The notes under the pieces were generated by a model. It made no database searches and was not told the DNA's origin. It saw nothing but the letters and a program-made list of their open reading frames with translations. Positions 6,359 through 25,410 of a DNA stretch of 64,000 nucleotides are shown here, one piece after another; the stretch's first letter is position 1, and each line of letters starts with the position of its first letter. Source of the stretch: Actinomycetales bacterium (GTDB taxonomy: Bacteria; Actinomycetota; Actinomycetes; Actinomycetales; Microbacteriaceae). The position numbers and the translations under genes were made by a program. The DNA lies in NCBI GenBank assembly GCA_015655415.1, contig JAATFB010000060.1, positions 1-64,000 on the forward strand, written 5' to 3'.

Positions 6359-6387
6359 TTGACAGCCTCTCGGTAATACTGTAATAC
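6359..6387 (+). promoter_or_regulatory. SigA-type promoter of the ABC importer operon
   Basis: TTGACA (6359-6364), 17-nt spacer, TAATAC (6382-6387). Confidence 0.65.
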
Positions 6388-6390
6388 AGT
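6378..6390. promoter_or_regulatory. GTAATAC palindrome, candidate GntR operator site 1
   Basis: ACTGTA-A-TACAGT, perfect 6+1+6 dyad overlapping the -10. Confidence 0.7.
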
Positions 6391-6393
6391 CGT

Positions 6394-8160
6394 GTGACGC
6401 TTTCTCGATCCGTCAATGATGACGGCACCCCGATCCGGCGGTTCCACCCGAAGCCGTTCCTCATCCTCAGCATCGTGCTCGCGAGCCTGTTCGCCATAGT
6501 CGCGATCTATCCGCTCCTTCGCGTCGTGCTCGGTCTGTTCAACGTGAACGGCGCGTGGACGGCCGCCCCCATCCTCCACATGTTCGCGGTCAAGGGCCTG
6601 TGGCAGATGCTCGTCAACACGATCGTCGTCGTCGTCGTGAGCAGCGTTCTGGCGCTCGTCGTGGGTGCCGTGTTGGCTTGGCTCAACGAGCGCACCAATG
6701 CGCGGATGGGTACTCTCACCGACTCGCTGCCGCTCATCACCTACCTGGTGCCCCCGCTCGCCGGCGCAATCGGCTGGGCGCTGCTCCTCTCACCATCGGC
6801 GGGCGTGCTCAACGTTCTGCTCCGCGGCGGCGACCCCAGCGGGAGCGGCCCGCTCAACATCTTCAGTTGGCCCGGTCTGGTCTTCGTCTACACCCTGTAC
6901 TCGGTTCCGTACGCGTTCATCGCCGTCTCGAACGGCCTGCGCAACACGGACACGAGCCTCGAGGAGCAGTCGCGGGTGAGCGGCGCCAGCCTCGGGCGGA
7001 CGCTGTGGAGCGTCACGATCCCCTCGATCCGACCGGCGCTCGGCGGCGCGGTTCTCCTCATGGTGACCCAGGCTCTCGCGCTCTACTCGGTGCCCGTCAT
7101 CATCGGTACCGGCGCGAACATCCCGACCCTGGCCGTGGAGATCGTCAACCTGCTCAACTTCTCCTACCCGCCCCACACCAGCGAAGCCATCGGCCTGACG
7201 CTCATCATGGTCGTCCTCGTCGTGGTCGCGTGGGTGGCACAGAGTCGCATCCTGAGGTCCGGGCGCCACGGAACCCTGGGCGGCAGGGGGCAGCGCTTCG
7301 AGGTCACGACCCTCAAGGGCTGGCTCTGGCCGGCCCGGGCGATCTTCCTGCTCTACGGCCTGTTCGCCGTGCTGCTGCCGGTGTTCGCGCTCGTCATCGT
7401 CACGCTCGAGGGCTTCTGGTCGGCGACCATCAACTGGTCGACGCTCAGCGTCAACTGGTTCCTGAAGGCGCTCCAGGACCCGACCACCACGAAGGCGCTC
7501 GGCAACTCGATGCTGCTCGGCGTGGTGGGCGCGACCGTCGGCATCATCATCGCCGCGATCGTCTCAGTGCTCGTCGCCCGGAACCGCACCCGGCTCACCG
7601 GCGTGGTCGACGGCGCGATCAAGCTCCCGTCGGTGGTCTCCCACATCGTCATCGGCGTGGGCATGATCCTCGCCTTCGGAGGGCCGCCGTTCATGCTCGG
7701 CGGCACGGTCGCGATCCTGTTGATCGCCTATCTCGTGGTCTACCTCGCGCAAGGTTCGGTGACCACCGATGCCGCCGTCGCACAGGTGGGCAACGAGCTC
7801 GCCGAGGCGTCCTCCGTCGCCGGCGCGGGCTACGGACGCACCTTCTTCCGTGTGTATCTGCCGCTGATCCTCCCGGCGATGGTCGCGGGCTGGGCGTTCC
7901 TGTTCGCCCGCATGGCCGGCGACCTCACGGTGACGGCGATCCTGGGCTCGCCGAGCAACGTCACCATGGGCTACCTCATCATGCAGATCTTCCACAACGG
8001 GTCGTACGGCCAGCTGGCGCCGATCGCGATCATCATCACGGTGGTCTCATCGGTGGTCGTCATCGCGGTCATCGCGATCTCGAACACGTGGAGCCGGCGG
8101 CACACCAGGAAACGGCCGATCAAGGCCGGGCGAGAAGCGACAGCGACGGTGGCGAAGTGA
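6394..8160 (+). CDS. ABC transporter permease, fused two-domain, Fe3+/2-aminoethylphosphonate class
   Basis: 588 aa polytopic protein with two BPD permease signatures (EEQSRVSGASLGRTLWSVTIPSIRPAL; NELAEASSVAGAGYGRTFFRVYLPLILPAM). Confidence 0.88.
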   Translation: MTLSRSVNDDGTPIRRFHPKPFLILSIVLASLFAIVAIYPLLRVVLGLFNVNGAWTAAPILHMFAVKGLWQMLVNTIVVVVVSSVLALVVGAVLAWLNERTNARMGTLTDSLPLITYLVPPLAGAIGWALLLSPSAGVLNVLLRGGDPSGSGPLNIFSWPGLVFVYTLYSVPYAFIAVSNGLRNTDTSLEEQSRVSGASLGRTLWSVTIPSIRPALGGAVLLMVTQALALYSVPVIIGTGANIPTLAVEIVNLLNFSYPPHTSEAIGLTLIMVVLVVVAWVAQSRILRSGRHGTLGGRGQRFEVTTLKGWLWPARAIFLLYGLFAVLLPVFALVIVTLEGFWSATINWSTLSVNWFLKALQDPTTTKALGNSMLLGVVGATVGIIIAAIVSVLVARNRTRLTGVVDGAIKLPSVVSHIVIGVGMILAFGGPPFMLGGTVAILLIAYLVVYLAQGSVTTDAAVAQVGNELAEASSVAGAGYGRTFFRVYLPLILPAMVAGWAFLFARMAGDLTVTAILGSPSNVTMGYLIMQIFHNGSYGQLAPIAIIITVVSSVVVIAVIAISNTWSRRHTRKRPIKAGREATATVAK

Positions 8161-8189: not shown

Positions 8190-9347
8190 ATGAGCGGGAC
8201 TGCGACGGAGGCGGCCTCGCCGGCCGAGGTATCCGCCGGACGCGCGCCGATCGTGCAGGTGAAGGGGCTGTCCAAGCGCTTCAAGCGGGAATCCGGTGCG
8301 ATCACCGCGGCGGTCGACGACATCTCTCTGGAGGTCGCGGCAGGCGAGTTCGTGGTCCTGCTCGGGCCGTCCGGCTGCGGCAAGACGACGCTGCTGCGGA
8401 TGCTGGCGGGACTCGAGGTGCCGGATGGCGGCTCGATCGCGATCCGTGGACGCACCGTGTACGACGCCGCCGCGAAGGTCAGCGTGCCGACCGAGCGCCG
8501 CTCGATCAGCATGGTCTTCCAGTCGTATGCGCTGTGGCCCCACATGACGGTCGCGCAGAACATCGCCTACCCCCTGAACCGGTCGGGAAAGAGGCTGGGC
8601 AAGGCGGAGATCGCACGGCAGGTCGAACGCGTGCTGGAGCTCGTGCGCATCCCGGATCTGGCACAGCAGTACCCGAACCAGATGAGCGGCGGGCAGCAGC
8701 AGCGCGTCGCGCTCGCTCGCGCGCTCGTCTCCGGCAGCGACCTCGTACTCTTCGACGAGCCGCTCTCGAACGTCGACGCGCAGGTGCGCGAGCGGTTGCG
8801 CTACGAGCTGCTCGACATCCAGCGCGAGCTCGGCTTCGCAGCGGTCTACGTCACGCACGACCAATCGGAGGCCATGGGCCTCGCGAACCGGATCGCGGTG
8901 ATGGGCGCAGGCCGCATCCGCCAGATCGCCTCTCCGCGCGAGACCTACGAGAACCCGGTGTCCCGCTACGTCGCGAACTTCGTCGGTGTGAGCAACGAGG
9001 AGCCGGGAACGGTCGTCTCGCTCGACGGGGACGTCGCGACGCTGCACACGGCGACCGGCGAGCTGCAGGGCCGTGTGACGGGCGGTGCGGTGGCGGTCGG
9101 AGACGAGGCCACTCTCGTGTGGCGTCCGGAGCACGCGACCGTGTCCGTGCAGGAGCCGACGGACGCTCGGTTCCGCTTCCCCGCACGCGTCGAGGCACTG
9201 CTGTTCGAGGGTGCCCACAACGAGGTGGTGCTGGATGTCGGGGGACGGCGTGCCCGGGCGTGGGCCCACGTGACGGCCGCCCTCGACGCGGGCTCCACCG
9301 TGTGGGTCGCCCTGAACCCCGCCTACGCCCGGGTCCTCAAGGACTAG
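8190..9347 (+). CDS. ABC transporter ATP-binding protein, FbpC/PotA/PhnT type
   Basis: Walker A GPSGCGKTTLL, signature MSGGQQQRVALARAL, Walker B LVLFDEPLSNVD, C-terminal TOBE-like region. Confidence 0.9.
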   Translation: MSGTATEAASPAEVSAGRAPIVQVKGLSKRFKRESGAITAAVDDISLEVAAGEFVVLLGPSGCGKTTLLRMLAGLEVPDGGSIAIRGRTVYDAAAKVSVPTERRSISMVFQSYALWPHMTVAQNIAYPLNRSGKRLGKAEIARQVERVLELVRIPDLAQQYPNQMSGGQQQRVALARALVSGSDLVLFDEPLSNVDAQVRERLRYELLDIQRELGFAAVYVTHDQSEAMGLANRIAVMGAGRIRQIASPRETYENPVSRYVANFVGVSNEEPGTVVSLDGDVATLHTATGELQGRVTGGAVAVGDEATLVWRPEHATVSVQEPTDARFRFPARVEALLFEGAHNEVVLDVGGRRARAWAHVTAALDAGSTVWVALNPAYARVLKD

Positions 9348-9431: not shown

Positions 9432-9444
9432 ACCGTAATACGGT
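9432..9444. promoter_or_regulatory. GTAATAC palindrome, candidate GntR operator site 2
   Basis: ACCGTA-A-TACGGT, perfect 6+1+6 dyad upstream of the gntR gene. Confidence 0.7.
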
Positions 9445-9481: not shown

Positions 9482-10225
9482 ATGAAAGGGTCACGCATCA
9501 TGGCCGCAGTATCGCAAGTCGCTACCCGTGGAACCCCGGCGACGGTGATGATCCCCAGGGTTGCCGCGCCCCTGCGGCAGGAGCTGCTCGGGCACATCCG
9601 CGCGGCGATCTCCGCTGGCGAGTACAAGCCGGGCGAACGGCTTGTCGAGAGGGTGCTCTGCGAGCGGTACGGCGTGAGCCGGACCGTCGTCCGGGAGGCG
9701 CTGCGCCATCTCGAGGCGGAGGGACTCGTGACCATCGTCCCGAACCGCGGGCCCGTCGTCACCGTGCTCTCTCGGCAAGACGTGGAAGGTCTCTTCGAGG
9801 TCCGTGCCGCCATGGAGGCTCTTGCCGCCGAGCGCTTCGCAGAGCGCGCGACACCGGCTGAGCGCGCGGAGCTTGCGGCATCCTGCGACGCGGTCGAAGC
9901 CGCCTACTCCACGGAAGAGCCGGAAAGCTGGATCAATGCGAAGGATGCCTATTACGACGTCCTGCTGAAGGGCGCGCACAACGATCTCATCCGGAGCACG
10001 ATCGTGGGCATCCACTCCCGCATCCAGGTCATGCGCGGTCGCTCGCTGTCGGCGCCCGGCCGGCGCGAGGCGAGCCTCGCAGAGATCCGCGAGATCACCA
10101 GGCTCGCCGTCGCGGGGAAGGCCGCAGAGGCGGCGAAGGCGGCACGCAGGCACGTCGAGGACGCCGAAAGGGTGGCCTTCGCGCAGAGCGCCGAACTGGC
10201 TCCGTCGAACACATCGGAAGGATGA
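9482..10225 (+). CDS. GntR-family regulator, FadR/FCD-type
   Basis: LRQELLGHIRAAISAGEYKPGERLVERVLCERYGVSRTVVREALRHLEAEGLV wHTH plus helical C-terminal domain. Confidence 0.9.
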   Translation: MKGSRIMAAVSQVATRGTPATVMIPRVAAPLRQELLGHIRAAISAGEYKPGERLVERVLCERYGVSRTVVREALRHLEAEGLVTIVPNRGPVVTVLSRQDVEGLFEVRAAMEALAAERFAERATPAERAELAASCDAVEAAYSTEEPESWINAKDAYYDVLLKGAHNDLIRSTIVGIHSRIQVMRGRSLSAPGRREASLAEIREITRLAVAGKAAEAAKAARRHVEDAERVAFAQSAELAPSNTSEG

Positions 10226-10231
10226 CGACAC

Positions 10232-11182
10232 ATGGGTGACGGGCTGGTCGACGGAGGCGCGGTCCTCTTCGTGGGCATCGGCGCGATGGGAGAGCCGATG
10301 TCGTCTCGGATCGCGAACGCCGGCGCGTATCGAGTGGTCGTCACCGATGCGGATGCGCAACGGGCATCGGCGGTGGCGGCGCGGATCGGGGCGGTCGCCG
10401 CGACGCCGGAGGAGTCGGCCGGCCCGCTGCACGAGTTCCGGACCGTGGTGCTCAGCCTGCCGTCGAGCCCCGTCGTCGAATCGGTGCTGCTCGGCGACGG
10501 CGGCATCTTCGGGCGCCTGGACCCGGGCTCGGTCGTCATCGACATGAGCTCCTCCACGCCGGCGAGCACTCGCGCGCTCGCCGCGACCGCCGCCCGGCTC
10601 CGGCTCGGATACCTCGACGCACCGGTCTCGGGCGGTGTTGCGAAGGCGCGCACCGGGGAGCTCTCGATCATGGTCGGAGGCGAGGAGGCGGTGTTCGCGT
10701 CGCGTCGCGAACTGCTCGAGTCGATGGGCACCACGATCACTCACGTCGGCGGTCCTGGAACGGGCCACGCGATGAAGGCGCTCAACAACCTGCTCTCCGC
10801 GATCGGCCTCATCGGCGCGGCGGAGGTGCTGGCGACCGCGACGAAGTTCGGCATCGAGCCGCGCATCGCGCTCGACGTGCTCAACGCGTCGACCGGGCGC
10901 AACCAGGCCACGGAGGTGAAGTACGGGCGTTATGTGCTCTCGCGCTCGTTCGACTCCGGCTTCGCGATGCAGCTGATGGTCAAGGATCTGAGAATCGCGC
11001 TCGAGATCGCGCATGACGCCCGGATTCCGGTGCCGATGAGCGCGAGCGCTCTCGAGGAGTGGACCGCCGCGTTCGACGCACTGGGGCAGAACGCCGACCA
11101 CACCGAGATCGCCGAGTATGTCGAGCGGCGCGCGGGGGTCCTTCTCACCGAGCCGACAGACGCGGCGATCGCCGCATCGTGA
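10232..11182 (+). CDS. NAD(P)-dependent beta-hydroxyacid dehydrogenase (3-HIBADH/GlxR family)
   Basis: GIGAMGEPM, DAPVSGGVAKARTGELSIMVGG and GPGTGHAMKALNN signatures. Confidence 0.88.
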   Translation: MGDGLVDGGAVLFVGIGAMGEPMSSRIANAGAYRVVVTDADAQRASAVAARIGAVAATPEESAGPLHEFRTVVLSLPSSPVVESVLLGDGGIFGRLDPGSVVIDMSSSTPASTRALAATAARLRLGYLDAPVSGGVAKARTGELSIMVGGEEAVFASRRELLESMGTTITHVGGPGTGHAMKALNNLLSAIGLIGAAEVLATATKFGIEPRIALDVLNASTGRNQATEVKYGRYVLSRSFDSGFAMQLMVKDLRIALEIAHDARIPVPMSASALEEWTAAFDALGQNADHTEIAEYVERRAGVLLTEPTDAAIAAS

Positions 11183-11199
11183 ACAAAGGGGAACTCGAC

Positions 11200-11616
11200 A
11201 TGAGCGAAGTCACGCAGGAACAGCAGGACTACATCGACAATATGGCGCGGGCCCGCGGATATGTCCTCGAGTACCACAAGGTCATGGCGAAGCAAGACTA
11301 CGCGACGCTCAAGGCCGTCGACAACATGGTGCATGCCGCATACCTCGCCCCCCGCGCGCTCGACAGAAGGACCAAAGAGCTCATCTTCATCGTGAGCCTC
11401 ACGGTGATGCGGGCGACGAAGGGGCAGATACAGGCGCACATCAAGGTCGCCCTCGATCTCGGGCTCACCCCGCAGGAGATCCTGGAGGCGATCGAGATCG
11501 CACTGCCCGAGGCCGGGATCGTCGCCTTCCAGGAGGGCTTCGCGGCCTGGCAGGAGCTGGTCGGCGCGGACGGGATCGAGCCGCAGGTCGAGGCGTTCCG
11601 CGCCAAGCGCCCGTGA
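11200..11616 (+). CDS. Carboxymuconolactone decarboxylase-family protein
   Basis: 139 aa; LDRRTKELIFIVSLTVMRATKGQIQAHIKVALDLGLTPQEILEAIEIALPEAG. Confidence 0.82.
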   Translation: MSEVTQEQQDYIDNMARARGYVLEYHKVMAKQDYATLKAVDNMVHAAYLAPRALDRRTKELIFIVSLTVMRATKGQIQAHIKVALDLGLTPQEILEAIEIALPEAGIVAFQEGFAAWQELVGADGIEPQVEAFRAKRP

Positions 11617-11646: not shown

Positions 11647-11659
11647 GTCGTAATACAGG
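11647..11659. promoter_or_regulatory. GTAATAC half-palindrome, candidate GntR operator site 3
   Basis: GTCGTAATACAGG upstream of the comA-like gene; TTGACA at 11618 and TAGTGT at 11643 upstream. Confidence 0.55.
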
Positions 11660-11695
11660 ATTACAATTCAATCGGGCGCTTGCCGCTCCGGAGAG

Positions 11696-12541
11696 GTGAC
11701 AACGGTGTCAGATGCTTCGACGACCGAGCGGTCGTTCCCGTCCCTCGCGCTCAACGAGCGCGCAGCCAAGCCGCGCGGTGCGGGGATCACGGAGATCCGC
11801 GGCGGCTACTACACGATCGTCGGACCACAGCGCCTTGCGGACATCCTCGACGTCGCGGGCGAATGGGTCGACTGGATCAAGGTCCCCGGGCCCGGTGCCG
11901 CCCTGACCCCTGCCGGCACGTTGCGACAGCTGGCCGAGGTATCGCGTGCGCACGGTGTGAAGTTCGGGATCGGCGGCCTCATCGAGAAGGTGGTCACTCA
12001 GGGTCCGAAGGCAGTTGACGCCTACTTCGACAGGCTTCCCGAGCTGGGCTTCGAGGTCACCGAGATCTCTGCCGGCTTCCTCGCGTTGCCCGACTCCGAC
12101 TATCTGCGTCTCGTGGAGCGGGCTGCCAAGAGCGGCCTCACCGTCAAGGCGGAGGTCGGCATTCAGTTCGGGGCAGGCGGCACATCCGAGGCCGATGATC
12201 TCGAGTCGGCGGGGACCGGATCGGTGAGCCATGCGATCTCGCTGGCGCGGCGAGCGCTGGACGCCGGAGCGCACTTCGTCGTCCTCGAGTCCGAGGGCGT
12301 GACGGAATCGGTCAAGGTCTGGCGCACCGACGTCCCTTCGGCTCTCGCCGACGCGATCGGCATCGAGAAGATCATCTTCGAGGCCGCCGAGCCCAAGGTC
12401 TTCGAGTGGTACATCAAGAACTTCGGGCCCGAGGTGAACGTCTTCATCGATCACAGCCAGGCGCTGCTCCTCGAGGCGGTGCGATCGGGCGTCTGGGGCT
12501 CCACCACGCTGTTCAACCGCGTGTTCACGTACAAGGGCTGA
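11696..12541 (+). CDS. Phosphosulfolactate synthase (ComA)-family protein
   Basis: KPRGAGITEIRGGYYTIVG, WVDWIKVPGPGAALTP, GFEVTEISAGF and TVKAEVGIQFGAGG match the ComA TIM-barrel layout; GTG at 11705 after GGAGAGG is an alternative start. Confidence 0.75.
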   Translation: MTTVSDASTTERSFPSLALNERAAKPRGAGITEIRGGYYTIVGPQRLADILDVAGEWVDWIKVPGPGAALTPAGTLRQLAEVSRAHGVKFGIGGLIEKVVTQGPKAVDAYFDRLPELGFEVTEISAGFLALPDSDYLRLVERAAKSGLTVKAEVGIQFGAGGTSEADDLESAGTGSVSHAISLARRALDAGAHFVVLESEGVTESVKVWRTDVPSALADAIGIEKIIFEAAEPKVFEWYIKNFGPEVNVFIDHSQALLLEAVRSGVWGSTTLFNRVFTYKG

Positions 12542-12563
12542 GCGCCGGCGAGGCGCGGAAGGT

Positions 12564-14072
12564 ATGGGGAAGCGAATGACGAAGGTCGTAGTGATCGGTG
12601 CCGGAAACGCAGGGCTCTCGGCGGCGCTGTCGGCACGGGAGCACGGTGCGGACGTGGTGGTGCTGGAGGCGGCGCCCGAGGATGAGTACGGCAGCGACTC
12701 ATACTTCTCCGGAGGCCTGTTCCGGGTCTCCTACGAGAGGTACTCCGATCTGTCCGCGCTCGTGGACGATCTGACCCTCGCAGGCGAGGGGCTGGACGAG
12801 TTCGCGAGCTACGCCGAGGCCGACTTCCTCGACGACTGGGGCCGCGTCACCGGGTACCGGCTCGACCCTGAGATCTCCGACCACGTCGTCAGCAACAGCT
12901 TCGAGGCTCTCAAGTGGTTGCACGAGAAGGGCAAAGTGCCGTTCGTCTCGCCGATCATCGTCGACGAGAACGGGCGCGCCCGGCACAGCCGTCCCGGCTG
13001 GCACGGCGGCTTCGTCGAGGCGTCCGGCGCCGGCGCCGGGCTCACCGACGCCCTGCGCAGATCGACCGTGGCAAGTGGTGCAGACATCCGTTACGGAGTC
13101 GAGGCGATCGGGCTCACGCGGCGAGACGGCGGCCGGGGGTGGACGGTGGCGACGCGCACCACCGTCGGCGGCGTGGTCGCCGAGATCGACGCAGACGCGC
13201 TCATCGTGGCCAGCGGCGGCTTCCAGGCCGACACCGAATGGCGCACTCGGGACCTCGGCGTCGGCTGGGATCTCGCGAAGGTGCGAGGCTCCGTGCACAA
13301 CACCGGAAAGGGCCTGCGTCTCCTTCTCGACCAGGGTGCGAAGGCCGCCGGCAACTGGTCCGGCTGCCACGCCGTCGCGTGGAGCACGGGCTCCGGCGAG
13401 GCAGGGCGAGCCGATGCCAACCACGTCTTCGAGCGCGAGAGCCACCCGTTCGGCATCAGCGTCAACTCTCTCGGTGAGCGTTTTCTCGACGAGGGGGAGG
13501 ACTTCGGCGCATACACCTATGCGAAGTACGGCAAGGTCATCCTCACTCAGCCGGGCCAGGTCGCCTGGCAGATCTTCGACGAGAAGACCCGCAGCCTGTG
13601 GACCGATGAGTACCGCTACAAGAATCCCGAGGCGGCCCGCATCCAGGCCGGCAGCCTCGAGGAGCTCGCCGACAAGATCGTGCCCCGCGGCATGGGGTCG
13701 AAGGAGACCTTCCTCAAGACCGTGGCCGACTACAACGCGGCGGTCGACTCGGGCATCGAGTTCAACCCCTACATCAAGGACGGCAAACGCACGAATGGCC
13801 TCGTCCCCGACAAGACCAACTGGTCGCAGAAGATCGAGGACGGCCCCTTCTACGCGTTCGAGGTGACCTGCGGAATCACGTTCACCTTCGGCGGGGTGAA
13901 GGTGGACACGGGTGCCCGTGTGCTTGACCGCCGCGACGAGGCGATCCCGAAGCTGTACGCAGTCGGCGAAGCGGTCGGCGGCCTCTACTACTTCAACTAC
14001 GCGAGCGGGACGGGGCTCACCGCCGGCACCGTGCTCGGACGTGAGGCCGGCAGGCTGGCGGCGACGGCGTGA
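12564..14072 (+). CDS. FAD-dependent dehydrogenase, fumarate reductase/TcuA-like flavoprotein
   Basis: VVIGAGNAGLSAALSAREHGADVVVLE Rossmann motif; GGVKVDTGARVLDRRDEAIPKLYAVGEAVGGLYYFNYASGTGLTAGTVLGREAG C-terminal signature. Confidence 0.85.
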   Translation: MGKRMTKVVVIGAGNAGLSAALSAREHGADVVVLEAAPEDEYGSDSYFSGGLFRVSYERYSDLSALVDDLTLAGEGLDEFASYAEADFLDDWGRVTGYRLDPEISDHVVSNSFEALKWLHEKGKVPFVSPIIVDENGRARHSRPGWHGGFVEASGAGAGLTDALRRSTVASGADIRYGVEAIGLTRRDGGRGWTVATRTTVGGVVAEIDADALIVASGGFQADTEWRTRDLGVGWDLAKVRGSVHNTGKGLRLLLDQGAKAAGNWSGCHAVAWSTGSGEAGRADANHVFERESHPFGISVNSLGERFLDEGEDFGAYTYAKYGKVILTQPGQVAWQIFDEKTRSLWTDEYRYKNPEAARIQAGSLEELADKIVPRGMGSKETFLKTVADYNAAVDSGIEFNPYIKDGKRTNGLVPDKTNWSQKIEDGPFYAFEVTCGITFTFGGVKVDTGARVLDRRDEAIPKLYAVGEAVGGLYYFNYASGTGLTAGTVLGREAGRLAATA

Positions 14073-14593
14073 GCGAGACGGCGACCGAGCTCTCGTGGCA
14101 GGAGCGGGTCTACCGCGTGCTGCGTGAGCACGGGGTGACACAGTTCCCCTATGTGCCCGACGCAGGCCATAGATTCCTCATCGAGGCCGCGACCGCCGAC
14201 CCGTCGGTGCACGCGATCCCCTGCACCACAGAGGAAGAGGGCGTCGGCATCGTCGCGGGAGCCCATCTCGGCGGCGAGACGGGCGTGCTTCTCATGCAGT
14301 CCAGTGGCGTGGGCAACACGATCAACTTCCTGTCGCTCATCCAGCACTGCAGCTTTCCATTCCTGACGCTCGTGACGATGCGGGGCGACTTCGGCGAGCA
14401 GAACCCGTGGCAGTTCGCGATGGGCCAGGCCGTCGAGCCGACGCTCAACGCCATGGGCCTCATCACCCTCAGGGCCGATGACCCCGAGCAGGCCGTCAGC
14501 ACCGTCGAGGCCGCGCTGGGCATGACGCAGGTCGGTGGCCGCTCGGTCGCCGTGCTGTTCGGCCAGCGACTGCTGGGCGCCAAGAAGTTCTAG
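14069..14593 (+). CDS. Sulfopyruvate/phosphonopyruvate decarboxylase-like alpha subunit (TPP PYR domain)
   Basis: PYVPDAGHRFLIE, CTTEEEGVGIVAGAHLGGETGVLLMQSSGVGN; lone PYR-domain length; 4-bp overlap with upstream gene. Confidence 0.8.
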   Translation: MSETATELSWQERVYRVLREHGVTQFPYVPDAGHRFLIEAATADPSVHAIPCTTEEEGVGIVAGAHLGGETGVLLMQSSGVGNTINFLSLIQHCSFPFLTLVTMRGDFGEQNPWQFAMGQAVEPTLNAMGLITLRADDPEQAVSTVEAALGMTQVGGRSVAVLFGQRLLGAKKF

Positions 14594-14601
14594 GAGGACG
14601 A

Positions 14602-15180
14602 ATGCTGGAACGAACCCCTGCCCTCGCGGCACTGCTCGACGGGACTGACGACCGGCTCATCGTCACCGGGCTCGGCAGTGCGGCGAACGACGTGGCATAC
14701 ATCACGGATTTCGCGCCACGCGCGTTCACCATGGACGGCGTCATGGGCGCCGCCGCGTCGCTCGGTCTGGGAGTAGCGCTCGCGCAGCCCGCTCGCGAGG
14801 TGCTCGTCGTCACGGGAGATGGCGAACTCCTCATGAACATCGGCACGCTCGCGACGATCGCCCTCCAGAATCCTCAGAATCTCGGGATCGTGGTCCTCGA
14901 CAATGGCCTCTACGGTCTGACCGGCGGCCAGACCACGGCGACCGCGACGGTGGCCGATCTCGAGACGGTGGCGCGTGGTCTCGGCATCCGCCGCACGTTG
15001 ACGGTGCGTTCCGACGACGAGCTGACCGCGGCGCACGAGCTCATCGCAACGCCCGGGGACACCGCGGTCATCGTGGTCAAGGTCGCGCCGGGTCCGGCGG
15101 CCGCGGTCCGCATCGACCGCGATGGATCCAGACTGCGGTCGAACTTCCGCTCCTACGTGCTCTCGGAGGTCGGCCGATGA
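14602..15180 (+). CDS. Sulfopyruvate decarboxylase-like beta subunit (TPP PP domain)
   Basis: DGVMGAAASLGLGVALAQP and the TPP motif GDGELLMNIGTLATIALQNPQNLGIVVLDNGLYG. Confidence 0.82.
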   Translation: MLERTPALAALLDGTDDRLIVTGLGSAANDVAYITDFAPRAFTMDGVMGAAASLGLGVALAQPAREVLVVTGDGELLMNIGTLATIALQNPQNLGIVVLDNGLYGLTGGQTTATATVADLETVARGLGIRRTLTVRSDDELTAAHELIATPGDTAVIVVKVAPGPAAAVRIDRDGSRLRSNFRSYVLSEVGR

Positions 15181-16661
15181 CTGCGACCGTGTATCCCATG
15201 CTCATCGACGGGCAGGACTGGCCCGGCGACGGCCCCGGGATCATCGACGTCGACAACCCCTACGACGGTGAGGTGTGGGCACGGGTGCCGGTGGGCACCG
15301 ATGCCGACGTGGACCGCGCCGTCGCCGCAGCCACCCGGGCCTTCCAGTCCGGCCCATGGGGCACGATGCTCCCGGCGGCGCGAGCGAGGCTGATGCGGCG
15401 CCTCGGGGAGCTCATCGACCGCGAAGCCGAGGCGCTCACCCGCGCCCAGGTCATGGAGAACGGCAAGGCGATTCGCGAGCAGTCGGCGCAGACGAGCGGA
15501 CTGTCCTCATTCCTCAACTACTTCGCGGGGGTCGCGGAGATCCGCGGCGGCGAGACGATTCCCGTGAGCGTCAAGGACACCTTCGCCTACACGGTACGTG
15601 AGCCGCTGGGCGTCGTCGCCTGCCTCACCCCGTGGAACAGCCCGCTTGCGCTGCTGATGTGGAAGCTCGCGCCGGCGCTCGCCGCGGGGAACACGATCGT
15701 GATCAAGCCGTCCGAGGTCACTCCGGTGTCAACGGTGATGCTCGCCCGGCTGGCCAAGGAGGCAGGCCTGCCCGACGGTGTCATCAACGTGGTCACTGGA
15801 GCGGGCGCCACGGGGGCCGCGCTCGCAAGGCATCCCGGTGTACGCAAGATCGCGTTCACCGGCTCCACCGCTGTCGGCCGGGAGATCGGCAAGATCGCGG
15901 GCGAGAAGCTCATCTCGGCCTCGCTGGAACTGGGCGGCAAGTCGCCGAACATCGTCTTCGACGACGCGGATCTCGACGCGGCGATCGAGGGGACCGTCGG
16001 CGGCGTCTTCGCGGCCGCCGGGCAGACCTGCATCGCCGGCTCGCGCGTGCTCGTGCACGACTCCATCTACGACGAGTTCGCGAGGCGCCTGGTCGAGAGA
16101 TCCGAGCGGATCGTCCAGGGCGACCCGCTCGACTGGGACACCGAGGTCGGCACCATCGCCAACGCGCGGCAATACTCCAAGGTGCTGTCGCTGATCGAGA
16201 TGGCCAACGGCGAGGGGGCCCATCTGCTGCTCGGCGGCGGTCGGCCCGAGGCACCCGCCCTGCAGAAGGGCCTGTTCATCGCCCCGACGATCTACGGTGA
16301 TGTGACGCCGGACATGCGGATCACACAAGAAGAGGTGTTCGGGCCGGTCGTCGTGCTTCAGCGGTTCCACGACGACGAAGAGGCAGTCCGACTCGCCAAC
16401 GGGACCCCGTACGGCCTCGCCGCCGGCGTCTGGACGCGCGACGTCAAGCGCGCTCACCGGGTCGCCCGGCAGATCGTCGCCGGGACGGTCTGGATCAACA
16501 CCTACCGTAAGACGAACTTCGCGACGCCGTTCGGCGGCTTCAAAGACAGCGGGATCGGGCGAGAGAACGGCGCCAACGCCATCGACGAGTTCACCGAGGA
16601 GAAGCTCATCTGGCTCGACCTCGGCGACGGGGTGGCCGACCCGTTCAACCCGTTCGCGTGA
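15177..16661 (+). CDS. NAD(P)-dependent aldehyde dehydrogenase 1
   Basis: LTPWNSPL, FTGSTAVGREIG, LELGGKSPNIVF and AGQTCIAGSR motifs; overlaps upstream stop (ATGA). Confidence 0.93.
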   Translation: MTATVYPMLIDGQDWPGDGPGIIDVDNPYDGEVWARVPVGTDADVDRAVAAATRAFQSGPWGTMLPAARARLMRRLGELIDREAEALTRAQVMENGKAIREQSAQTSGLSSFLNYFAGVAEIRGGETIPVSVKDTFAYTVREPLGVVACLTPWNSPLALLMWKLAPALAAGNTIVIKPSEVTPVSTVMLARLAKEAGLPDGVINVVTGAGATGAALARHPGVRKIAFTGSTAVGREIGKIAGEKLISASLELGGKSPNIVFDDADLDAAIEGTVGGVFAAAGQTCIAGSRVLVHDSIYDEFARRLVERSERIVQGDPLDWDTEVGTIANARQYSKVLSLIEMANGEGAHLLLGGGRPEAPALQKGLFIAPTIYGDVTPDMRITQEEVFGPVVVLQRFHDDEEAVRLANGTPYGLAAGVWTRDVKRAHRVARQIVAGTVWINTYRKTNFATPFGGFKDSGIGRENGANAIDEFTEEKLIWLDLGDGVADPFNPFA

Positions 16662-16679: not shown

Positions 16680-18305
16680 ATGCGCGGATACCAGCTCGTT
16701 CCCACGCTGCTGCGACAGCGCGGGCTGACGACGGTCTTCGCGATGCTTGCGGAGACGAACGGACCGTGGTTGGGATACGGCATCGCCCACGGTCTCGTTC
16801 GTCTGGTGCGGACGAGGCATGAGGAGACGGCGGTGATGGCCGCCAACGGCTTCGCCCGAGTGACGGGTTCCCCCGGGGTCGCGAGCGTCACACGAGGGCC
16901 TGGTTTCGCGAACTCGATCAACGCGCTCGCCGCCGCAGTGGACACGCACGTTCCCCTCATCCTCTTCACGGGAGAGAGCCCGCGACCGACGGCGCAGTCG
17001 CAGAACCTCGAGCAGGAGGGCATCGCTCGGCTGCTCGGCGCGGGCTACGTCGCGGTGCATGAGGTCGCCGAGCTGCCTGATGTGCTCGACCGCGCGATCG
17101 ACCGCGCCACCTGGCGCGGCTGGCCGCAGGTCGTCGCCGTGCCGGAGCCGCTCCTCGGGGAGGAGGCGGAGCCGGGTGAATGGGTCCCGGTCCCGCCCGC
17201 TCCCGCGGTCCCGAACGCCGCCGCCGTCGCGAAGGCCGTGACGCTGCTCACGGCTGCGAAGCACCCGCTCATCATCGGCGGTCACGGGGCGGTCGGGGCA
17301 GCCGCGCGGACCGCACTGGAACGGCTTGCGGAGCATACCGGAGCAGCGCTCGGCACGACCCTGATGGCGATCCGGAACTTCGCGGGACACCCGAACGAGA
17401 TCGGCCTCGTCGGCGGCTGGGCTCCACGAGCGGCGCGCGAGTATCTGCAGTCCGTGGATCTCGTCGTCGCATTCGGCGCGACGTTGAACCGCTTCACGAT
17501 GGATCGGGGCCGGCTCTTCCCCGAGGCATCGGTCGTGCAGGTGCTGCTCGACGCGAATGACGCCGGCTCGTTCCGGCGCCCGAACGTGCTGCTCGTCGGC
17601 GACGCCGCCGAGACCGCGTCGGCGGTACTCGCCGAGCTCGATCGCCGCGGCATGCCGCAGCGCGCGTATCCGGGGCCGAGCTTCGCCTCGGTTCGGGAGT
17701 CGCTCCTCGCCGTGGAGCGCGGACGCGCCGCCGCCGGCGGGCTCGACGTCATCGCGGTCGGGCATCGGATCGACGAGCTGCTGCCGCCCGATCGCATCGT
17801 GGTGACCGACTCCGGCCGGGCGGTCATCCCGCTTCCCGATCTCGTCGACGCGCGAGACGGGCGCTCGTGGATCCACGGACGAGGCTACGGGTCGATCGGA
17901 CAAGGACTCGGCCTCGCGATCGGTGCGGCGACGGCACAGCCCGGCCGCACCACCGTGCTCTTCGTCGGCGATGGGGCCTTCCTCTCCGCCTGCCATGATC
18001 TCGACGCGGCGCGCCTGGCGGGACTCGAGAACCTCGTGATCGTCGTCCTCAATGACGAGAAGTACGGCATGGAGGTCGGCGCCATGACGCGCTTCGGCCT
18101 CTCCCTCGAAGCGATCAGCCAGTCGACCCCCGAGCTCGTCGCACTCGCCCGGGTGTACGGCGGCGACGGCGTCCGAATCGAATCCGTCGCCGACCTCGAC
18201 GCGCTCAGAATTCCGATCGGGCAGGGACTGTTTCTGGTCGACGCTCGGCTCGATGCCGAGTCAGACCCGGCCTTCGCCGTCGGCGACGGATCCGGCGCAA
18301 AGTAA
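16680..18305 (+). CDS. Full-length TPP-dependent enzyme, acetolactate synthase/benzoylformate decarboxylase fold
   Basis: HEETAVMAANGFARVTGSPGVASVTRGPGFANS and GDGAFLSACHDLDAARLAGLENLVIVVLNDEKYG. Confidence 0.85.
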   Translation: MRGYQLVPTLLRQRGLTTVFAMLAETNGPWLGYGIAHGLVRLVRTRHEETAVMAANGFARVTGSPGVASVTRGPGFANSINALAAAVDTHVPLILFTGESPRPTAQSQNLEQEGIARLLGAGYVAVHEVAELPDVLDRAIDRATWRGWPQVVAVPEPLLGEEAEPGEWVPVPPAPAVPNAAAVAKAVTLLTAAKHPLIIGGHGAVGAAARTALERLAEHTGAALGTTLMAIRNFAGHPNEIGLVGGWAPRAAREYLQSVDLVVAFGATLNRFTMDRGRLFPEASVVQVLLDANDAGSFRRPNVLLVGDAAETASAVLAELDRRGMPQRAYPGPSFASVRESLLAVERGRAAAGGLDVIAVGHRIDELLPPDRIVVTDSGRAVIPLPDLVDARDGRSWIHGRGYGSIGQGLGLAIGAATAQPGRTTVLFVGDGAFLSACHDLDAARLAGLENLVIVVLNDEKYGMEVGAMTRFGLSLEAISQSTPELVALARVYGGDGVRIESVADLDALRIPIGQGLFLVDARLDAESDPAFAVGDGSGAK

Positions 18306-18400: not shown

Positions 18401-19477
18401 ATGCAACGAAGCGTTTCACAGCTCGTCCGAACAGCACGGGTCGGCGGCGCCTTCGCCGCGGTCGCAGCCGCCGCGCTGATCATCGCCGGCTGCAGTTCGG
18501 CGCCGACGACGACTCATTCCACTGTTCCCAGCAACGACCCACTCGCCTCGCTCGTCGCCGCCGCCCAGAAGGAGGGATCGCTGACGATCTACGGCTCGCC
18601 GGATGAGCCGGGTGTCGACGCTGCGCTGAAGCAGTTCCAGCAGCAGTACGACATCCACGCCACGTATACGCGCCTGGCCGGCACGAGCCTCGAGTCACGC
18701 TACGCCTCGGAGAAGCAGTCGCACGCGACGACCGCCGACGTCATCATGCTCAACCTCGACCAGTTCGTGCCCGACTCGCTCAAGAGCGGGATCATCACCT
18801 CTCCCGCCGACCTCAAGATCCCCGGGTACCCGTGGCACTTTCCGGCGAAATTCCTGCTGCCGGACTATGGCACCGCCGAGGTCGGCGTCGGCGTGCGCGG
18901 CATCACCATCAACACGAACTATGTGAAGCCCGGCCAGATCACGACCTGGAGCGATCTGCTGAAACCGAAGTGGAAGGGGCACATCGGAGTCCCGGACCCC
19001 ACGTCGGCTGCGGTCTACACCGGTCACTGGTACACCGTCGCGCAGCACCAGAAGGGCGGCGCGCAGAAGTTCCTCGAGGGCGTTCGCGCACAGCTCGCCC
19101 GCACCGGGGTCTATGCGGCCGGGGCTCCCGCGACATCGGCCGCCGGCTCCGGGGAGGTGTGGATCGTGCCGATGAACATCGCGAGTCTCACCAACAGCGC
19201 GGTTCAGGAGGGGGCGCCGCTCTCCTTCGTCACCCCGAAGGACACGGTGGCCGACCAGCAGGTGATATTCGCGAACAGCGCCCCGGACCACCCGAACGCC
19301 GCGAAGCTCTTCATCGCCTACATGATGTCCCGGGGCGGTTCGCAGACGATGGCGAAGAACAACGACGAGCTGTCGCCCTACGACGCCTCGAAGCTCCCGA
19401 GCACGCTCTGGAGCTGGCCGATCAGCACGGCCGCCGAACAGCAGGACAACGTCAACCGCTGGCTCACCGGACGCTGA
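18401..19477 (+). CDS. ABC transporter solute-binding lipoprotein 1
   Basis: Lipobox LIIAGCSS, SLTIYGSPDEPGVDAALKQF periplasmic-binding fold; start trimmed to MQRSVSQ. Confidence 0.88.
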   Translation: MQRSVSQLVRTARVGGAFAAVAAAALIIAGCSSAPTTTHSTVPSNDPLASLVAAAQKEGSLTIYGSPDEPGVDAALKQFQQQYDIHATYTRLAGTSLESRYASEKQSHATTADVIMLNLDQFVPDSLKSGIITSPADLKIPGYPWHFPAKFLLPDYGTAEVGVGVRGITINTNYVKPGQITTWSDLLKPKWKGHIGVPDPTSAAVYTGHWYTVAQHQKGGAQKFLEGVRAQLARTGVYAAGAPATSAAGSGEVWIVPMNIASLTNSAVQEGAPLSFVTPKDTVADQQVIFANSAPDHPNAAKLFIAYMMSRGGSQTMAKNNDELSPYDASKLPSTLWSWPISTAAEQQDNVNRWLTGR

Positions 19478-19590
19478 CCCAGAGGCTCGCGACGACGGCC
19501 ACCGCCGTCCGGCGGGATTCCGCGTCACGCCGTCCGCTGAGGACGAGTTGTCTTCCCGTAACAAGACAAGATCGCAAGTGAAAGAGAGCA

Positions 19591-20688
19591 ATGCAAATGC
19601 AATGGCGCATTTCGTCCCGAACACGCATGGCACGTGCCGGCACCGCCATCGCGGCGATCGCGGCTGCGGCCGTGATCCTCGCCGGCTGCAGTTCGACCTC
19701 GACGGCCACGTCGAACTCCACCAGCACCAGCGCGAGCACGAGCGACCCCGCTCTGGCCCCGCTCATCGCGGCGGCGAAGAAGGAGGGCTCGCTCCTGGTC
19801 TACGGCTCCCCCGGCGAGCCCGGGCTCAAGGCGGCGGTGGCCGGCTTCAGCCAGAAGTACGGGATCAAGGCGAGCTACGTCCGACTCGTCGGCGGTGACC
19901 TCGAATCCCGATACAGCTCGGAGAAGCAGGCGGGTTCCCCGACTGCCGACGTTCTCATGCTCAATCTCGACAGCTTTGCGGACACCGCGAAGCAGCAGGG
20001 GCTCATCACCGACCCCGCTGACCTCAAGATCCCCGGCTATCCCTGGGGCTTCCCCTCGAAGTTCCTGCTCTCCGACTACGGAACCGCAGTCGTCGGCCTG
20101 CAGATCCGCGGCATCACCTACAACACCAACTACGTGAAGCCAGGCGAGATCAAGACCTGGAGCGACCTGCTGAACCCCAAGTGGAAGGGCCACATCGGCG
20201 TTCCGGATCCGACCTCGGCGGCGGTCTACGTCGGCCACTGGTACACCGTCGGTCAGCACCAGAAGGGCGGCGCGCAGAAATTCCTCGAGGGCGTGCACGC
20301 TCAGCTCGCCCACAACGGCGTCTACGCGAGCGGCGTCCCGGCCTCGGCTGCGGCCGGTTCCGGCGAGGTGTGGATCGTGCCGATGAACATCGCGAGCACG
20401 ACCAAGACGGTCTCCGACCAGGGGGCCCCGCTCAAGTTCGTCGTCCCGTCCCAGACGACGACCGACCAGCAGGTGATCTTCGCGAACAGCGATCCCGCCC
20501 ACCCGAACGCGGCAAAGCTCTTCATCGCCTACATGATGTCGAAAGAGGGCGCCGACACGATGGCGACGAACAACAACGAGACCTCGCCATTCGACACCGG
20601 CAAGCTGCCGAAGACGCTGTGGAACTGGGCGCCGTCGCTCGCAGACAAAGAGCAGAGCGACGTCAACCTCTGGCTCACCGGCCGATAA
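19591..20688 (+). CDS. ABC transporter solute-binding lipoprotein 2, paralog of the preceding gene
   Basis: Lipobox VILAGCSS and long blocks shared with binding protein 1 (SDLL.PKWKGHIGVPDPTSAAVY.GHWYTV.QHQKGGAQKFLEGV). Confidence 0.88.
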   Translation: MQMQWRISSRTRMARAGTAIAAIAAAAVILAGCSSTSTATSNSTSTSASTSDPALAPLIAAAKKEGSLLVYGSPGEPGLKAAVAGFSQKYGIKASYVRLVGGDLESRYSSEKQAGSPTADVLMLNLDSFADTAKQQGLITDPADLKIPGYPWGFPSKFLLSDYGTAVVGLQIRGITYNTNYVKPGEIKTWSDLLNPKWKGHIGVPDPTSAAVYVGHWYTVGQHQKGGAQKFLEGVHAQLAHNGVYASGVPASAAAGSGEVWIVPMNIASTTKTVSDQGAPLKFVVPSQTTTDQQVIFANSDPAHPNAAKLFIAYMMSKEGADTMATNNNETSPFDTGKLPKTLWNWAPSLADKEQSDVNLWLTGR

Positions 20689-20705: not shown

Positions 20706-21236
20706 ATGATTCCAGTAGGCACGCCGACCACCGACATCAGCGACGCGCATCCGGATCTCCAGGTCTGCGAGACGCAGTTCACCCGGTACGGCGGCAAGAC
20801 AGCCTTCGGCGGTCGCATCCGGACCCTCAAGTGCCTGGAGGACACGGCGCTCCTCATGCAGGTGCTCGGTCAGCCGGGCCACGGCGCGGTGCTCGTCGTC
20901 GACGGGGAGGCGTCCATGCGCAGCGCGCTGCTGGGCGACCGGCACGCCGGCATGGCGGCCGCGAACGGATGGGCGGGCGTCATCGTGTACGGTGCCGTGC
21001 GCGACAGCGTGGGCATCGGACGGCTCGAGCTCGGGGTGAAGGCCCTCGGGGTGACGCCCAGGCGCAGCGGCAAGTCGGCGCTCGGCGCGGTCGACGCACC
21101 CGTCCGCTTCGGCGGCGCCGAGTTCGTCGCGGGCGGCTACCTGTGGAGCGACGAGGACGGTGTCGTGGTCGCCCCGCCCGGCTGGGACTCCGACTCGCTC
21201 GAGCCGGCGCCGCAGCAGCAGGCGTACGCGCACTGA
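20706..21236 (+). CDS. RraA-like / 4-hydroxy-4-methyl-2-oxoglutarate aldolase-family protein
   Basis: PTTDISDAHPDLQVCETQF, GDRHAGMAAANGWAGVIVYGAVRDS, LGVTPRRSGKSALG. Confidence 0.85.
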   Translation: MIPVGTPTTDISDAHPDLQVCETQFTRYGGKTAFGGRIRTLKCLEDTALLMQVLGQPGHGAVLVVDGEASMRSALLGDRHAGMAAANGWAGVIVYGAVRDSVGIGRLELGVKALGVTPRRSGKSALGAVDAPVRFGGAEFVAGGYLWSDEDGVVVAPPGWDSDSLEPAPQQQAYAH

Positions 21237-21369: not shown

Positions 21370-22800
21370 TCAGCGCTCCCGGACCCGACGCAGCACCTCC
21401 GCCGCGCTGTGGATCGCGCCGGGTTCCTCGGCATGAAGCAGTGCGCTCTCGAGGGCCACGACGTCGGCATCGCCTAGGCCGAAGGCGGCGTTGCCGCGGA
21501 ACTTCGCTGCGACCGCCGCCTCGCTCATCGGATTGGCTTCCGTGCCGCGCGGCTCCGGCACCTCCACGACGTATCGCGAACCGTCGCGCATCCGTACCTC
21601 CAGTCCGCCGGGGTAGACCTGGCGGCCGTTGTCGAACTTCTCGCTCACCTCGTACTCGACGGTGGCCGCCAGGTCGAGCACCGCCTGATCGCGCAGTCCC
21701 TTCTCCGTGTAGGTGTTCAGGTCGACGCGGCCGTGCAGGAGCATCGCCGACACGGAGTATTGCAAGCTGAACTTGCCGCCGTACGGGGTGAGCGGGCGGA
21801 TGCGCGTCTCGCGCGGCTCAAGCACTATCGTCACCGCCGGACTGGGGACGATCGCGGTGATCTCGGCGATCTCGGCGAGCCGGTCCTCGATCTGCGCGCG
21901 GATCTCCAGCGCCGCGTCGAGCGCCCCGTGCATCCAGTAGCAGGAGGGGTAGGCCTTGTAAGCCATCCTCGGCGTCTCCCATTCCCGGCCCAGCGAGTCG
22001 AGAACGGGGCTCATGTCGACGTCCGCGTAGCCCGTGAGCGCCTCGTAGAGCCCGTAGCGGCCCTCGAAGACGTCGTCGGGGCCCTCTGCTCCTAGTGCGG
22101 CGAGCTCGGCGGAGAGGATGCCGTTGTGTGCTGCCCAGCCGGCGTGCAGATGCTTGTTCGGCGTGCCCTTCGCGATCCAGGCATTGAGCCCGCCGGCGGT
22201 GTCGCCGGCGATGCCGAAGGCGTTCGTCGTCGCCCGCGCGTCGAGGCCGAGCACCAGGGCGGCGCCCGCGGTCGCACCGAAGACGCCCGCGGTCAGTGTC
22301 GCGTGGAATCCGTGCTTCTGAAAGTGGATGGGGCCCCCCATGCCGATTCGGGTCGCCACCTCGTTGCCCGCGACGAGAGCCGCCACGAACTGCCGCCCGT
22401 CGGCGTCGGTGCGCTCCGACATCGCGAACGCGGCGGGCGTGACGATCGTGCTCGCATGCACGCGGGAGTCCGTGTCGATGTCGTCGAAGTCGATCGAGTG
22501 CTCGAGCGAGCCGTTCGCATAGGCGGCGTGCGCGGCAGGAACGCGATGCGGGATGCCGATGACCGATGCCTCCTCGACCCCGCGCATCCGCGCGAACAGG
22601 GCGACCGAGGCACGCGCGGTCGCCGCCTCGCCCGGCAGCACGGCCCCGGCGATGCCGACCCCGATCGTGTCGAGCGCGTGGAGCTTCGCCGCGGTGACGA
22701 CCTCCGGCGGGACGTCCTCGTAGCGCAGCCCGCTCACCCATCCCGCGATGCGTCGCGCGGCCGTCTCGCTCGCCCCCGTGTGTGCGGTGTGTTCGCGCAT
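21370..22800 (-). CDS. MmgE/PrpD-family protein
   Basis: HALDTIGVGIAGA, AAYANGSLEHSIDFDDID, HAGWAAHNGILSAELAALG; start trimmed to MREHTAH. Confidence 0.88.
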   Translation of the reverse strand: MREHTAHTGASETAARRIAGWVSGLRYEDVPPEVVTAAKLHALDTIGVGIAGAVLPGEAATARASVALFARMRGVEEASVIGIPHRVPAAHAAYANGSLEHSIDFDDIDTDSRVHASTIVTPAAFAMSERTDADGRQFVAALVAGNEVATRIGMGGPIHFQKHGFHATLTAGVFGATAGAALVLGLDARATTNAFGIAGDTAGGLNAWIAKGTPNKHLHAGWAAHNGILSAELAALGAEGPDDVFEGRYGLYEALTGYADVDMSPVLDSLGREWETPRMAYKAYPSCYWMHGALDAALEIRAQIEDRLAEIAEITAIVPSPAVTIVLEPRETRIRPLTPYGGKFSLQYSVSAMLLHGRVDLNTYTEKGLRDQAVLDLAATVEYEVSEKFDNGRQVYPGGLEVRMRDGSRYVVEVPEPRGTEANPMSEAAVAAKFRGNAAFGLGDADVVALESALLHAEEPGAIHSAAEVLRRVRER

Positions 22801-22952: not shown

Positions 22953-22965
22953 ACCGTAATACAGG
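22953..22965. promoter_or_regulatory. GTAATAC palindrome, candidate GntR operator site 4
   Basis: ACCGTAATACAGG upstream of ALDH 2, between divergent transcription units. Confidence 0.6.
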
Positions 22966-23036
22966 ATGCCAATTTGGCACCTGTGCGGCTGCCGCGGACG
23001 ATCGTCGTCCGGATGCGCTGAGAGGTGATCAGTTCG

Positions 23037-24525: not shown

Positions 24526-25410
24526 GTGACAGAGCAGCGCATCGCCGTGGTCGGTCTCGGGAACATGGGCGGTGCCGTCGCCGCGAATCTCGCGCAGCGA
24601 GGCGAGCGGGTCACCGGCTTCGACCTCTTCGAGCCAGCCCGCAGGCGTGCGGAGGAAGCAGGTGTTCGGGCGTTCGACAGCATCGCCGAGGCCATCACAG
24701 ACGCCGACGTCATCGTGACCAGCCTGCCCAACGGCGCTATCGTCAAGAGCGTCTATCTCGGCGATGACGGTGTCATCGCTCACGCGGCGCCTGGTGCATT
24801 GGTCATCGAGCTGAGCACCATCAGCCAGCAGGACATGATCGAGGTCGGGAACGCCGCTTCCGCCGCCGGCCTCCGCGTCGTGGACTGCGCGGTGAGTGGC
24901 AGCCCCGCCCAGGGCGGCAGCGGTGACCTCGCGCTCATCGTCGGCGCCACCGATGACGACCTGGCGATCGCCCAGCCGGTGCTGCGCGAGATCGGCTCGA
25001 GCCTCCAGCACGTCGGCGGCGTGGGCAAGGGGAAGGTCGTCAAGCTGGTCAACAACCTGATGGCCATGGGGAACGTGCTCGTCGCGGCCGAGGCGTTCCA
25101 GATCGGCATCGCTGCAGGGATGGACGCACAGCGTCTCTACGACGTGCTCTCGACGAGCGGCGGCCGCTCGCACCACTTCGTCAACCGCTTCCCGAAGGCC
25201 ATCGCCGGGGACTTCGCCCCCGGTTTCACCATCGCGCTCGGCGAGAAGGACCTCGGCTTGGGCATTCAGCTCGCGCACGATGTCGGCGTTCCCGCACCGG
25301 CCGCTGAGACGGTGCACGCGATGTATGGCGTGGCGATGGCGGAGGGCGACGGCGATGACGACATCGTCGGCCTCCTTCGGATGTACCAGCGTTGGACGCC
25401 CCGGCGCTGA
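24526..25410 (+). CDS. NAD(P)-dependent beta-hydroxyacid dehydrogenase 2
   Basis: VVGLGNMGGAVAANLAQRG, DCAVSGSPAQGGSGDLALIVG, GKVVKLVNNLM; GTG start. Confidence 0.88.
   Translation: MTEQRIAVVGLGNMGGAVAANLAQRGERVTGFDLFEPARRRAEEAGVRAFDSIAEAITDADVIVTSLPNGAIVKSVYLGDDGVIAHAAPGALVIELSTISQQDMIEVGNAASAAGLRVVDCAVSGSPAQGGSGDLALIVGATDDDLAIAQPVLREIGSSLQHVGGVGKGKVVKLVNNLMAMGNVLVAAEAFQIGIAAGMDAQRLYDVLSTSGGRSHHFVNRFPKAIAGDFAPGFTIALGEKDLGLGIQLAHDVGVPAPAAETVHAMYGVAMAEGDGDDDIVGLLRMYQRWTPRR

Follow-up and report, generated by a model that had tools for sequence, protein, structure and literature searches.

A divergent ComA-like gene heads a TcuA-ComDE-like operon within a predicted GntR-controlled regulon of an Actinomycetales bacterium

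Organization of the operon and properties of its products

The window analysed here, the first 64,000 nucleotides of contig JAATFB010000060.1 (assembly GCA_015655415.1) of an Actinomycetales bacterium of the Microbacteriaceae, contains an uninterrupted run of five plus-strand genes at 11705-16661. Family models, alignments and comparison with homologues showed that these genes encode a ComA-like protein (11705-12541; start at GTG 11705 or at 11696), a flavin adenine dinucleotide (FAD)-dependent TcuA-type dehydrogenase (12564-14072), the ComD-like (alpha, 14069-14593) and ComE-like (beta, 14602-15180) subunits of a thiamine pyrophosphate (TPP) decarboxylase and an aldehyde dehydrogenase of the type accompanying ComDE-like pairs (15177-16661). 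The junctions, from the ComA-like gene to the aldehyde dehydrogenase gene, are +22, -4, +8 and -4 bases. A preliminary description of the interval 11647-15180 had reported the first four genes as contiguous, and they do lie head to tail from 11705 to 15180. Beyond that interval the unit goes on to encode the aldehyde dehydrogenase, a further TPP enzyme, a pair of solute-binding proteins and an RraA-like protein, and a co-regulated importer lies upstream.

The ComA-like protein matched the Pfam family ComA (PF02679) with 215.5 bits, above the cut-off of 25.2, but reached 84.5 bits, below the cut-off of 280, with the equivalog TIGR03849, an archaeal model used without a bacterial ComA as control. 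A tree was built with a true ComA set of ten sequences, including M. jannaschii, the Bacillus structure 1U83 and Xanthobacter. The result showed that the window copy groups, with 100/100 support and on a long separating branch, in a clade of proteins from haloarchaea, Salinibacter, Methylosinus/Methylocystis and actinobacteria, hereafter the PrpD-linked clade, in which its position is basal. The window copy has 62 of the 74 clade-invariant columns; among the 37 columns invariant in true ComA, 21 are kept and 16 are lost. The mean pLDDT of a single-sequence AlphaFold2 model of the protein was 45.

Compared with ComA/phosphosulfolactate synthase (M. jannaschii 1QWG, the B. subtilis-type 1U83 and Xanthobacter XcbB1), the window copy shares PF02679 and the core residues D40, K43, G74-G75, E79, E103, S105, E133, E168, E205, E237 and R240 (M. 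jannaschii numbering), whereas its neighbours are different and its score lies far below the ComA equivalog model. K137 is replaced by Q157, R244 by W267, and in R170-E-S-G the arginine is replaced by E200 and the rest is deleted; T76, Q212, N227 and T247 are also absent. Nearly all of these losses are common to the clade, with K137, R170 and R244 replaced by Q, E and W throughout. The lost residues may be those that bind the phosphate of phosphoenolpyruvate (PEP) or sulfite; K137, R170 and R244 are candidate anion-binding residues. The preliminary description had left the conservation of the catalytic residues to be checked, and the outcome is divided: D40, K43, E79, E103, E133, E168, E205 and R240 are kept, whereas K137, R170-E-S-G, R244 and T247 are lost. 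Judged by its sequence, the ComA-like protein belongs to a distinct branch of the ComA family that has yet to be characterised and is not a phosphosulfolactate synthase.

ComB and ComC had been described as not visible, which holds for the cluster. In the genome, whose assembly is 87.6% complete, the ComB family (PF04029) has one match, outside the cluster, and the ComC family (PF02615) has none. The view that the genes do not form a coenzyme M pathway is supported by the residue losses and by the lack of pathway partners alongside.

The flavoprotein scored 465.4 bits against NF006130 (TcuA; cut-off 369) and 219.6 bits against TIGR02485 (cut-off 372.55), passing one of two NCBIfam equivalog models for the tricarballylate dehydrogenase TcuA, and it belongs with a TcuA-like group at 43-47% identity. 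Among the cluster genes between 6.4 and 25.4 kb, no TcuB electron-transfer partner was found. TcuA-type enzymes are a family of dehydrogenases that desaturate C-C bonds, and the earlier proposal that the flavoprotein takes the place of ComC was rejected for this reason; it is likelier to act before the ComA-like step than after it.

The TPP motif GDG...LDN of the beta subunit (30 residues) and the TTEEEG of the alpha subunit (residues 53-58) are intact, as previously described, and an alignment showed that TTEEEG, GDGE and DN are invariant across nine homologous pairs. The window pair resembles the ComDE sulfopyruvate decarboxylase in being a split TPP enzyme with intact motifs and in having the sulfopyruvate decarboxylase models TIGR03845 and TIGR03846 as its best family models, but differs in scoring below both equivalog cut-offs (alpha, 105.3 against 147.95 bits; beta, 142.6 against 221.5 bits). 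Scores against the phosphonopyruvate decarboxylase model TIGR03297 were also below its cut-off of 312.5 bits (63.4 and 109.6 bits for alpha and beta, respectively).

An operator-like motif and the predicted regulon

An operator-like motif, GTAATACnGnATTAC, is repeated upstream of the ABC importer, the gntR gene, the ComA-like gene and the second aldehyde dehydrogenase gene. On the plus strand, the repeats GTAATACTG/GTAATACAG (6373-6389) lie directly 5′ of the ABC permease gene, a half site (9435-9443) lies 5′ of gntR, the palindromic site GTAATACAGGATTAC (11650-11664) lies about 40 bases 5′ of the GTG codon at which the ComA-like gene probably starts, and a further site (22956-22964) lies in the intergenic region of a divergent PrpD/aldehyde dehydrogenase pair. 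The start of the previously described interval, 11647, coincides with the palindrome, a feature absent from that description. Of the 10 copies of the half motif GTAATACnG in the 3.16-Mb genome, five lie in the window, where 0.06 copies are expected, and all five precede transcription units of the cluster: the ABC permease (two copies), gntR, the ComA-like gene and the PrpD/aldehyde dehydrogenase pair. A consensus scan found no sigma-70 promoter 5′ of the ComA-like gene. The region from about 6.4 to 25.4 kb is thus marked by the sequence signature of a single regulon and, since the motif recurs before its units, is predicted to be a catabolic regulon under GntR control, with the GntR protein encoded in the cluster as the presumed binder of the operator-like sites.

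Besides the genes described above, the predicted regulon encodes an importer and its two binding proteins, a pair each of HIBADH-type dehydrogenases and aldehyde dehydrogenases, a carboxymuconolactone decarboxylase (CMD)-family protein, the RraA-like protein and the second TPP enzyme. All of its genes are on the plus strand except that for an MmgE/PrpD protein. Upstream of the ComA-like gene lie genes for a fused ABC permease of the ferric/putrescine/2-aminoethylphosphonate type (6394-8160), an ABC ATPase (8190-9347), the GntR/FCD regulator (9548-10225), a beta-hydroxyacid dehydrogenase of the HIBADH/tartronate semialdehyde reductase type (10232-11182; recognised by family models and 44% identical to its homologue in a Shinella cluster) and the CMD-family protein (11179-11616; domain match). 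Downstream of the first aldehyde dehydrogenase, family models identified the second TPP enzyme, of the acetolactate synthase/5-guanidino-2-oxopentanoate decarboxylase superfamily (16680-18305), solute-binding protein 1 (SBP_bac_6; 18401-19477), the RraA/CHA-aldolase-like protein (20706-21236), the second aldehyde dehydrogenase (23025-24497) and the second HIBADH-type dehydrogenase (24526-25410). Solute-binding protein 2 is encoded at 19591-20688, with an alternative start at 19627; the two solute-binding proteins (18401-20688) are tandem paralogues, apparently serving one ABC importer. The MmgE/PrpD protein, encoded on the minus strand (21370-22800), has iminodisuccinate epimerase and cis-aconitate decarboxylase as its nearest solved relatives and is not of the PrpD type that accompanies the ComA clade. 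Among solved structures, iminodisuccinate epimerase comes closest (127 bits), rather than 2-methylcitrate dehydratase.

Relatives of the ComA-like, TcuA-type and ComDE-like genes

Related loci were surveyed in plasmid records and in samples of Actinomycetota genomes. The result showed that an MmgE/PrpD gene lies upstream of the ComA-like gene, on the same strand, in all 34 clade loci outside the window, which are not 34 independent events because many come from related genomes. The two genes are immediately adjacent in 32 of the 34 loci, and PrpD lies 1.7-3.5 kb upstream in the remaining two. This two-gene operon has a wide distribution, extending over actinobacteria, haloarchaea, Salinibacter and plasmids of methanotrophs, and its ComA-like gene, where annotated, is labelled phosphosulfolactate synthase. 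The Methylosinus PrpD, the sole clade-type PrpD scored, matched 2-methylcitrate dehydratase best among both models and structures, with scores far short of the model cut-offs. A DtxR-like box matching at 15 or more of 19 positions precedes PrpD in 14 of 19 actinobacterial loci of the same order or family, compared with 26 of 6800 random windows (0.4%).

One such gene pair has been studied. The operon cg2796-cg2797 of Corynebacterium glutamicum, encoding a PrpD-like protein and a ComA homologue, is repressed by DtxR and has no known function (PMC1382209, PMC2807442, PMC7764795, PMC2627906); cg2796 expression rises 1610-fold in a dtxR mutant (PMC1382209), and the ComA homologue is 57% identical to Rubrobacter Rxyl_2563 (PMC2627906). 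Gene arrangement and DtxR control, rather than aligned sequence, point to cg2797 as a member of the clade of the window copy. The window copy is likewise ComA-like but, unlike cg2796-cg2797, leads a TcuA/ComDE operon with a GntR-type operator and has neither an adjacent PrpD of this type nor a DtxR box. Where other clade members have PrpD, the window member has a TcuA-type dehydrogenase, which follows it.

The association of ComA-family and TcuA genes was also found outside the clade. On Paracoccus versutus pTAV3 (NZ_CP035286), as in the window, a ComA-family gene stands directly before a related TcuA gene, which it overlaps and whose product is 45% identical to the window flavoprotein; PrpD and PrpF are nearby. 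The Paracoccus locus differs in its SsuA-type importer, in the absence of ComDE from the stretch shown and in its ComA, which is of another lineage (54% identical to a Bradyrhizobium protein that is itself about 30% identical to the window protein). In Bradyrhizobium, about 9 kb separates the genes for the relatives of the Paracoccus ComA and TcuA, and PrpD and PrpF are encoded next to them. In Hydrogenophaga, the same type of TcuA is followed by a gene for a LeuCD-type (aconitase-superfamily) hydro-lyase, with PrpF further on. The cluster at 104-132 kb of Shinella sp. WSC3-e pcSHIWSC3 shares with the window TcuA, HIBADH, RraA/CHA aldolase, aldehyde dehydrogenase, ComDE, PrpD, CMD, GntR, an ABC importer and a guanidino-type TPP enzyme, but has AcnA and a tripartite tricarboxylate transporter and lacks ComA.

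ComD-ComE pairs were accompanied by a related aldehyde dehydrogenase gene in eight of the nine plasmid loci examined and by an adjacent ComA gene in none. Four loci carry ComD-ComE-aldehyde dehydrogenase together with acyl-CoA dehydrogenase and CaiB or CoA transferase, and some also have a MaoC, CoA-ester lyase or isocitrate-dehydrogenase-like gene. These neighbourhoods suggest a route from a 2-oxoacid through a methylsuccinate-type acid to CoA ester degradation, and the module probably decarboxylates a 2-oxoglutarate-like acid.

A candidate pathway and competing explanations

The explanation that we favour, tentatively and at a little below even chances, is that the GntR-regulated regulon catabolises an imported polycarboxylic acid and that the ComA-like branch hydrates an unsaturated polycarboxylate supplied by TcuA or PrpD. 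The TcuA-type flavoprotein would desaturate the imported acid beside a carboxylate, and the ComA-like protein would then add water to the new C=C bond in a conjugate addition, as ComA does with sulfite, acting as an iron-sulfur-free hydratase of an aconitate-type acid. The resulting hydroxyacid would be oxidised or cleaved by the HIBADH- and RraA-type enzymes, and a 2-oxoacid would be converted by the ComDE-like enzyme to an aldehyde, to be oxidised by the adjacent aldehyde dehydrogenase. In most other organisms the branch would act after a PrpD-type dehydratase, often under iron-starvation control. The product of both the PrpD and the TcuA families is an unsaturated polycarboxylate. Hydration is proposed because both would present such a compound to the ComA-like protein and because the position of ComA is alternatively held by hydro-lyases. 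If true, the proposal would give the ComA fold a new reaction and provide a means of handling aconitate-type acids without a metal cluster. Among the papers searched, none mentioned phosphosulfolactate jointly with tricarballylate, or with aconitate and hydratase.

Several points weigh against this explanation. Gene content, the common operator-like motif, clade membership, the residue losses and the linkage to PrpD and TcuA are established, whereas substrate, water as the nucleophile and the order of the steps are inferred. No clade-type PrpD lies beside the window gene, the best matches in its own genome being 30-31% identical and not adjacent, and no DtxR box was found in the window, the best candidate, before the ComA-like gene, matching at 10 of 19 positions. 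Neither deletion nor overexpression of cg2796-cg2797 changed indole tolerance (PMC7764795). A canonical aconitase is present in all 27 PrpD-ComA genomes tested, so that no genome forces an iron-free aconitase role, and the window's own genome encodes two aconitase-superfamily proteins. The SsuA-type importers of the Bradyrhizobium and Paracoccus loci, with a sulfate exporter also present in Bradyrhizobium, fit sulfonate chemistry.

Alternatively, the ComA-like protein may be merely co-regulated, with the ComDE-aldehyde dehydrogenase module decarboxylating an ordinary 2-oxoacid, for example a 2-oxoglutarate homologue, without a substrate link. This is unlikely but deserves serious weight: the 2-oxoacid of ComDE may be unrelated to the ComA product because the module is common without ComA, and some of its loci carry acyl-CoA dehydrogenase, CaiB, MaoC or CoA-ester lyase genes. 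Against it, the window genes are tightly spaced or overlapping and form one unit whose first gene, that for the ComA-like protein, has an operator-like site of its own.

A more specific form of the hydratase proposal appears rather unlikely, namely that the branch is the second component of an iron-sulfur-free aconitase: PrpD would remove water from citrate or a homologue, and the ComA-like protein would add it back to aconitate to give the isocitrate form. This would be an iron-sparing bypass in bacteria and haloarchaea, and the window would have redeployed the hydratase behind a tricarballylate-type dehydrogenase.

Action on a sulfonate, by sulfite addition to or elimination from a polycarboxylate in a degradative direction, is distinctly unlikely. 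Sulfite addition is the known chemistry of the ComA family, the core acid/base residues are retained, and the related TcuA/ComA loci with SsuA-type ABC importers include, in Bradyrhizobium, a cysteine dioxygenase besides the sulfate exporter; however, the candidate anion-binding residues are replaced clade-wide, the genes of the window cluster include no recognisable sulfite oxidase, exporter or sulfonate importer, and PrpD-ComA operons are under iron control in many actinobacteria. The preliminary description had envisaged a degradative addition or elimination of C-S, C-C or C-P type on the ComA fold. Recruitment of the fold for an addition or elimination in a catabolic cluster is probable, but C-S or C-P chemistry is unsupported, since the ComA-specific residues are lost and no identified gene of the window cluster handles sulfite.

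Degradation of a phosphonate, with a phosphonopyruvate-type decarboxylase and a 2-aminoethylphosphonate-type importer, is very unlikely. Phosphonate-type transporter models are the best sub-threshold matches in the cluster: PhnR (PhnR_burk), PhnU2 and PhnT2 are the best NCBIfam matches of the regulator, permease and ATPase, and PhnS2 is the sole match of solute-binding protein 1. All score below their cut-offs, however (99.7 against 271.5, 137.7 against 593, 326.6 against 457.7 and 46.2 against 392.8 bits, respectively), sulfopyruvate decarboxylase models outscore phosphonopyruvate ones for both subunits, and the cluster genes that were searched yielded neither a C-P hydrolase nor a PEP mutase.

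A true ComA serving a coenzyme M or sulfolactate pathway is highly improbable and was rejected on residues and gene context, since the Pfam match and the ComB-family gene elsewhere in the genome stand against the low equivalog score, the loss of RESG, K137, R244 and T247, the missing ComC family and the absence of the adjacent lyase and pyridoxal phosphate-enzyme genes seen in Xanthobacter, Mycolicibacterium, Nocardioides and Methylocystis. Residues and neighbourhoods contradict the database label phosphosulfolactate synthase for the whole branch, and relabelling would rid actinobacterial and haloarchaeal annotation of spurious coenzyme M predictions. For cg2796-cg2797, a very strongly DtxR-repressed orphan operon, the favoured hydratase explanation provides a concrete, testable function.

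Other ComA lineages were also encountered. Four congeners of the window organism have a different ComA, and the three that were aligned contain the RESG motif and group with Bacillus ComA; the window's own genome has the divergent copy only. On a plasmid of Arthrobacter sp. ERGS1:01, another ComA-family lineage lies beside genes for thioredoxin, thioredoxin reductase and a UGSC-family (seleno)protein.

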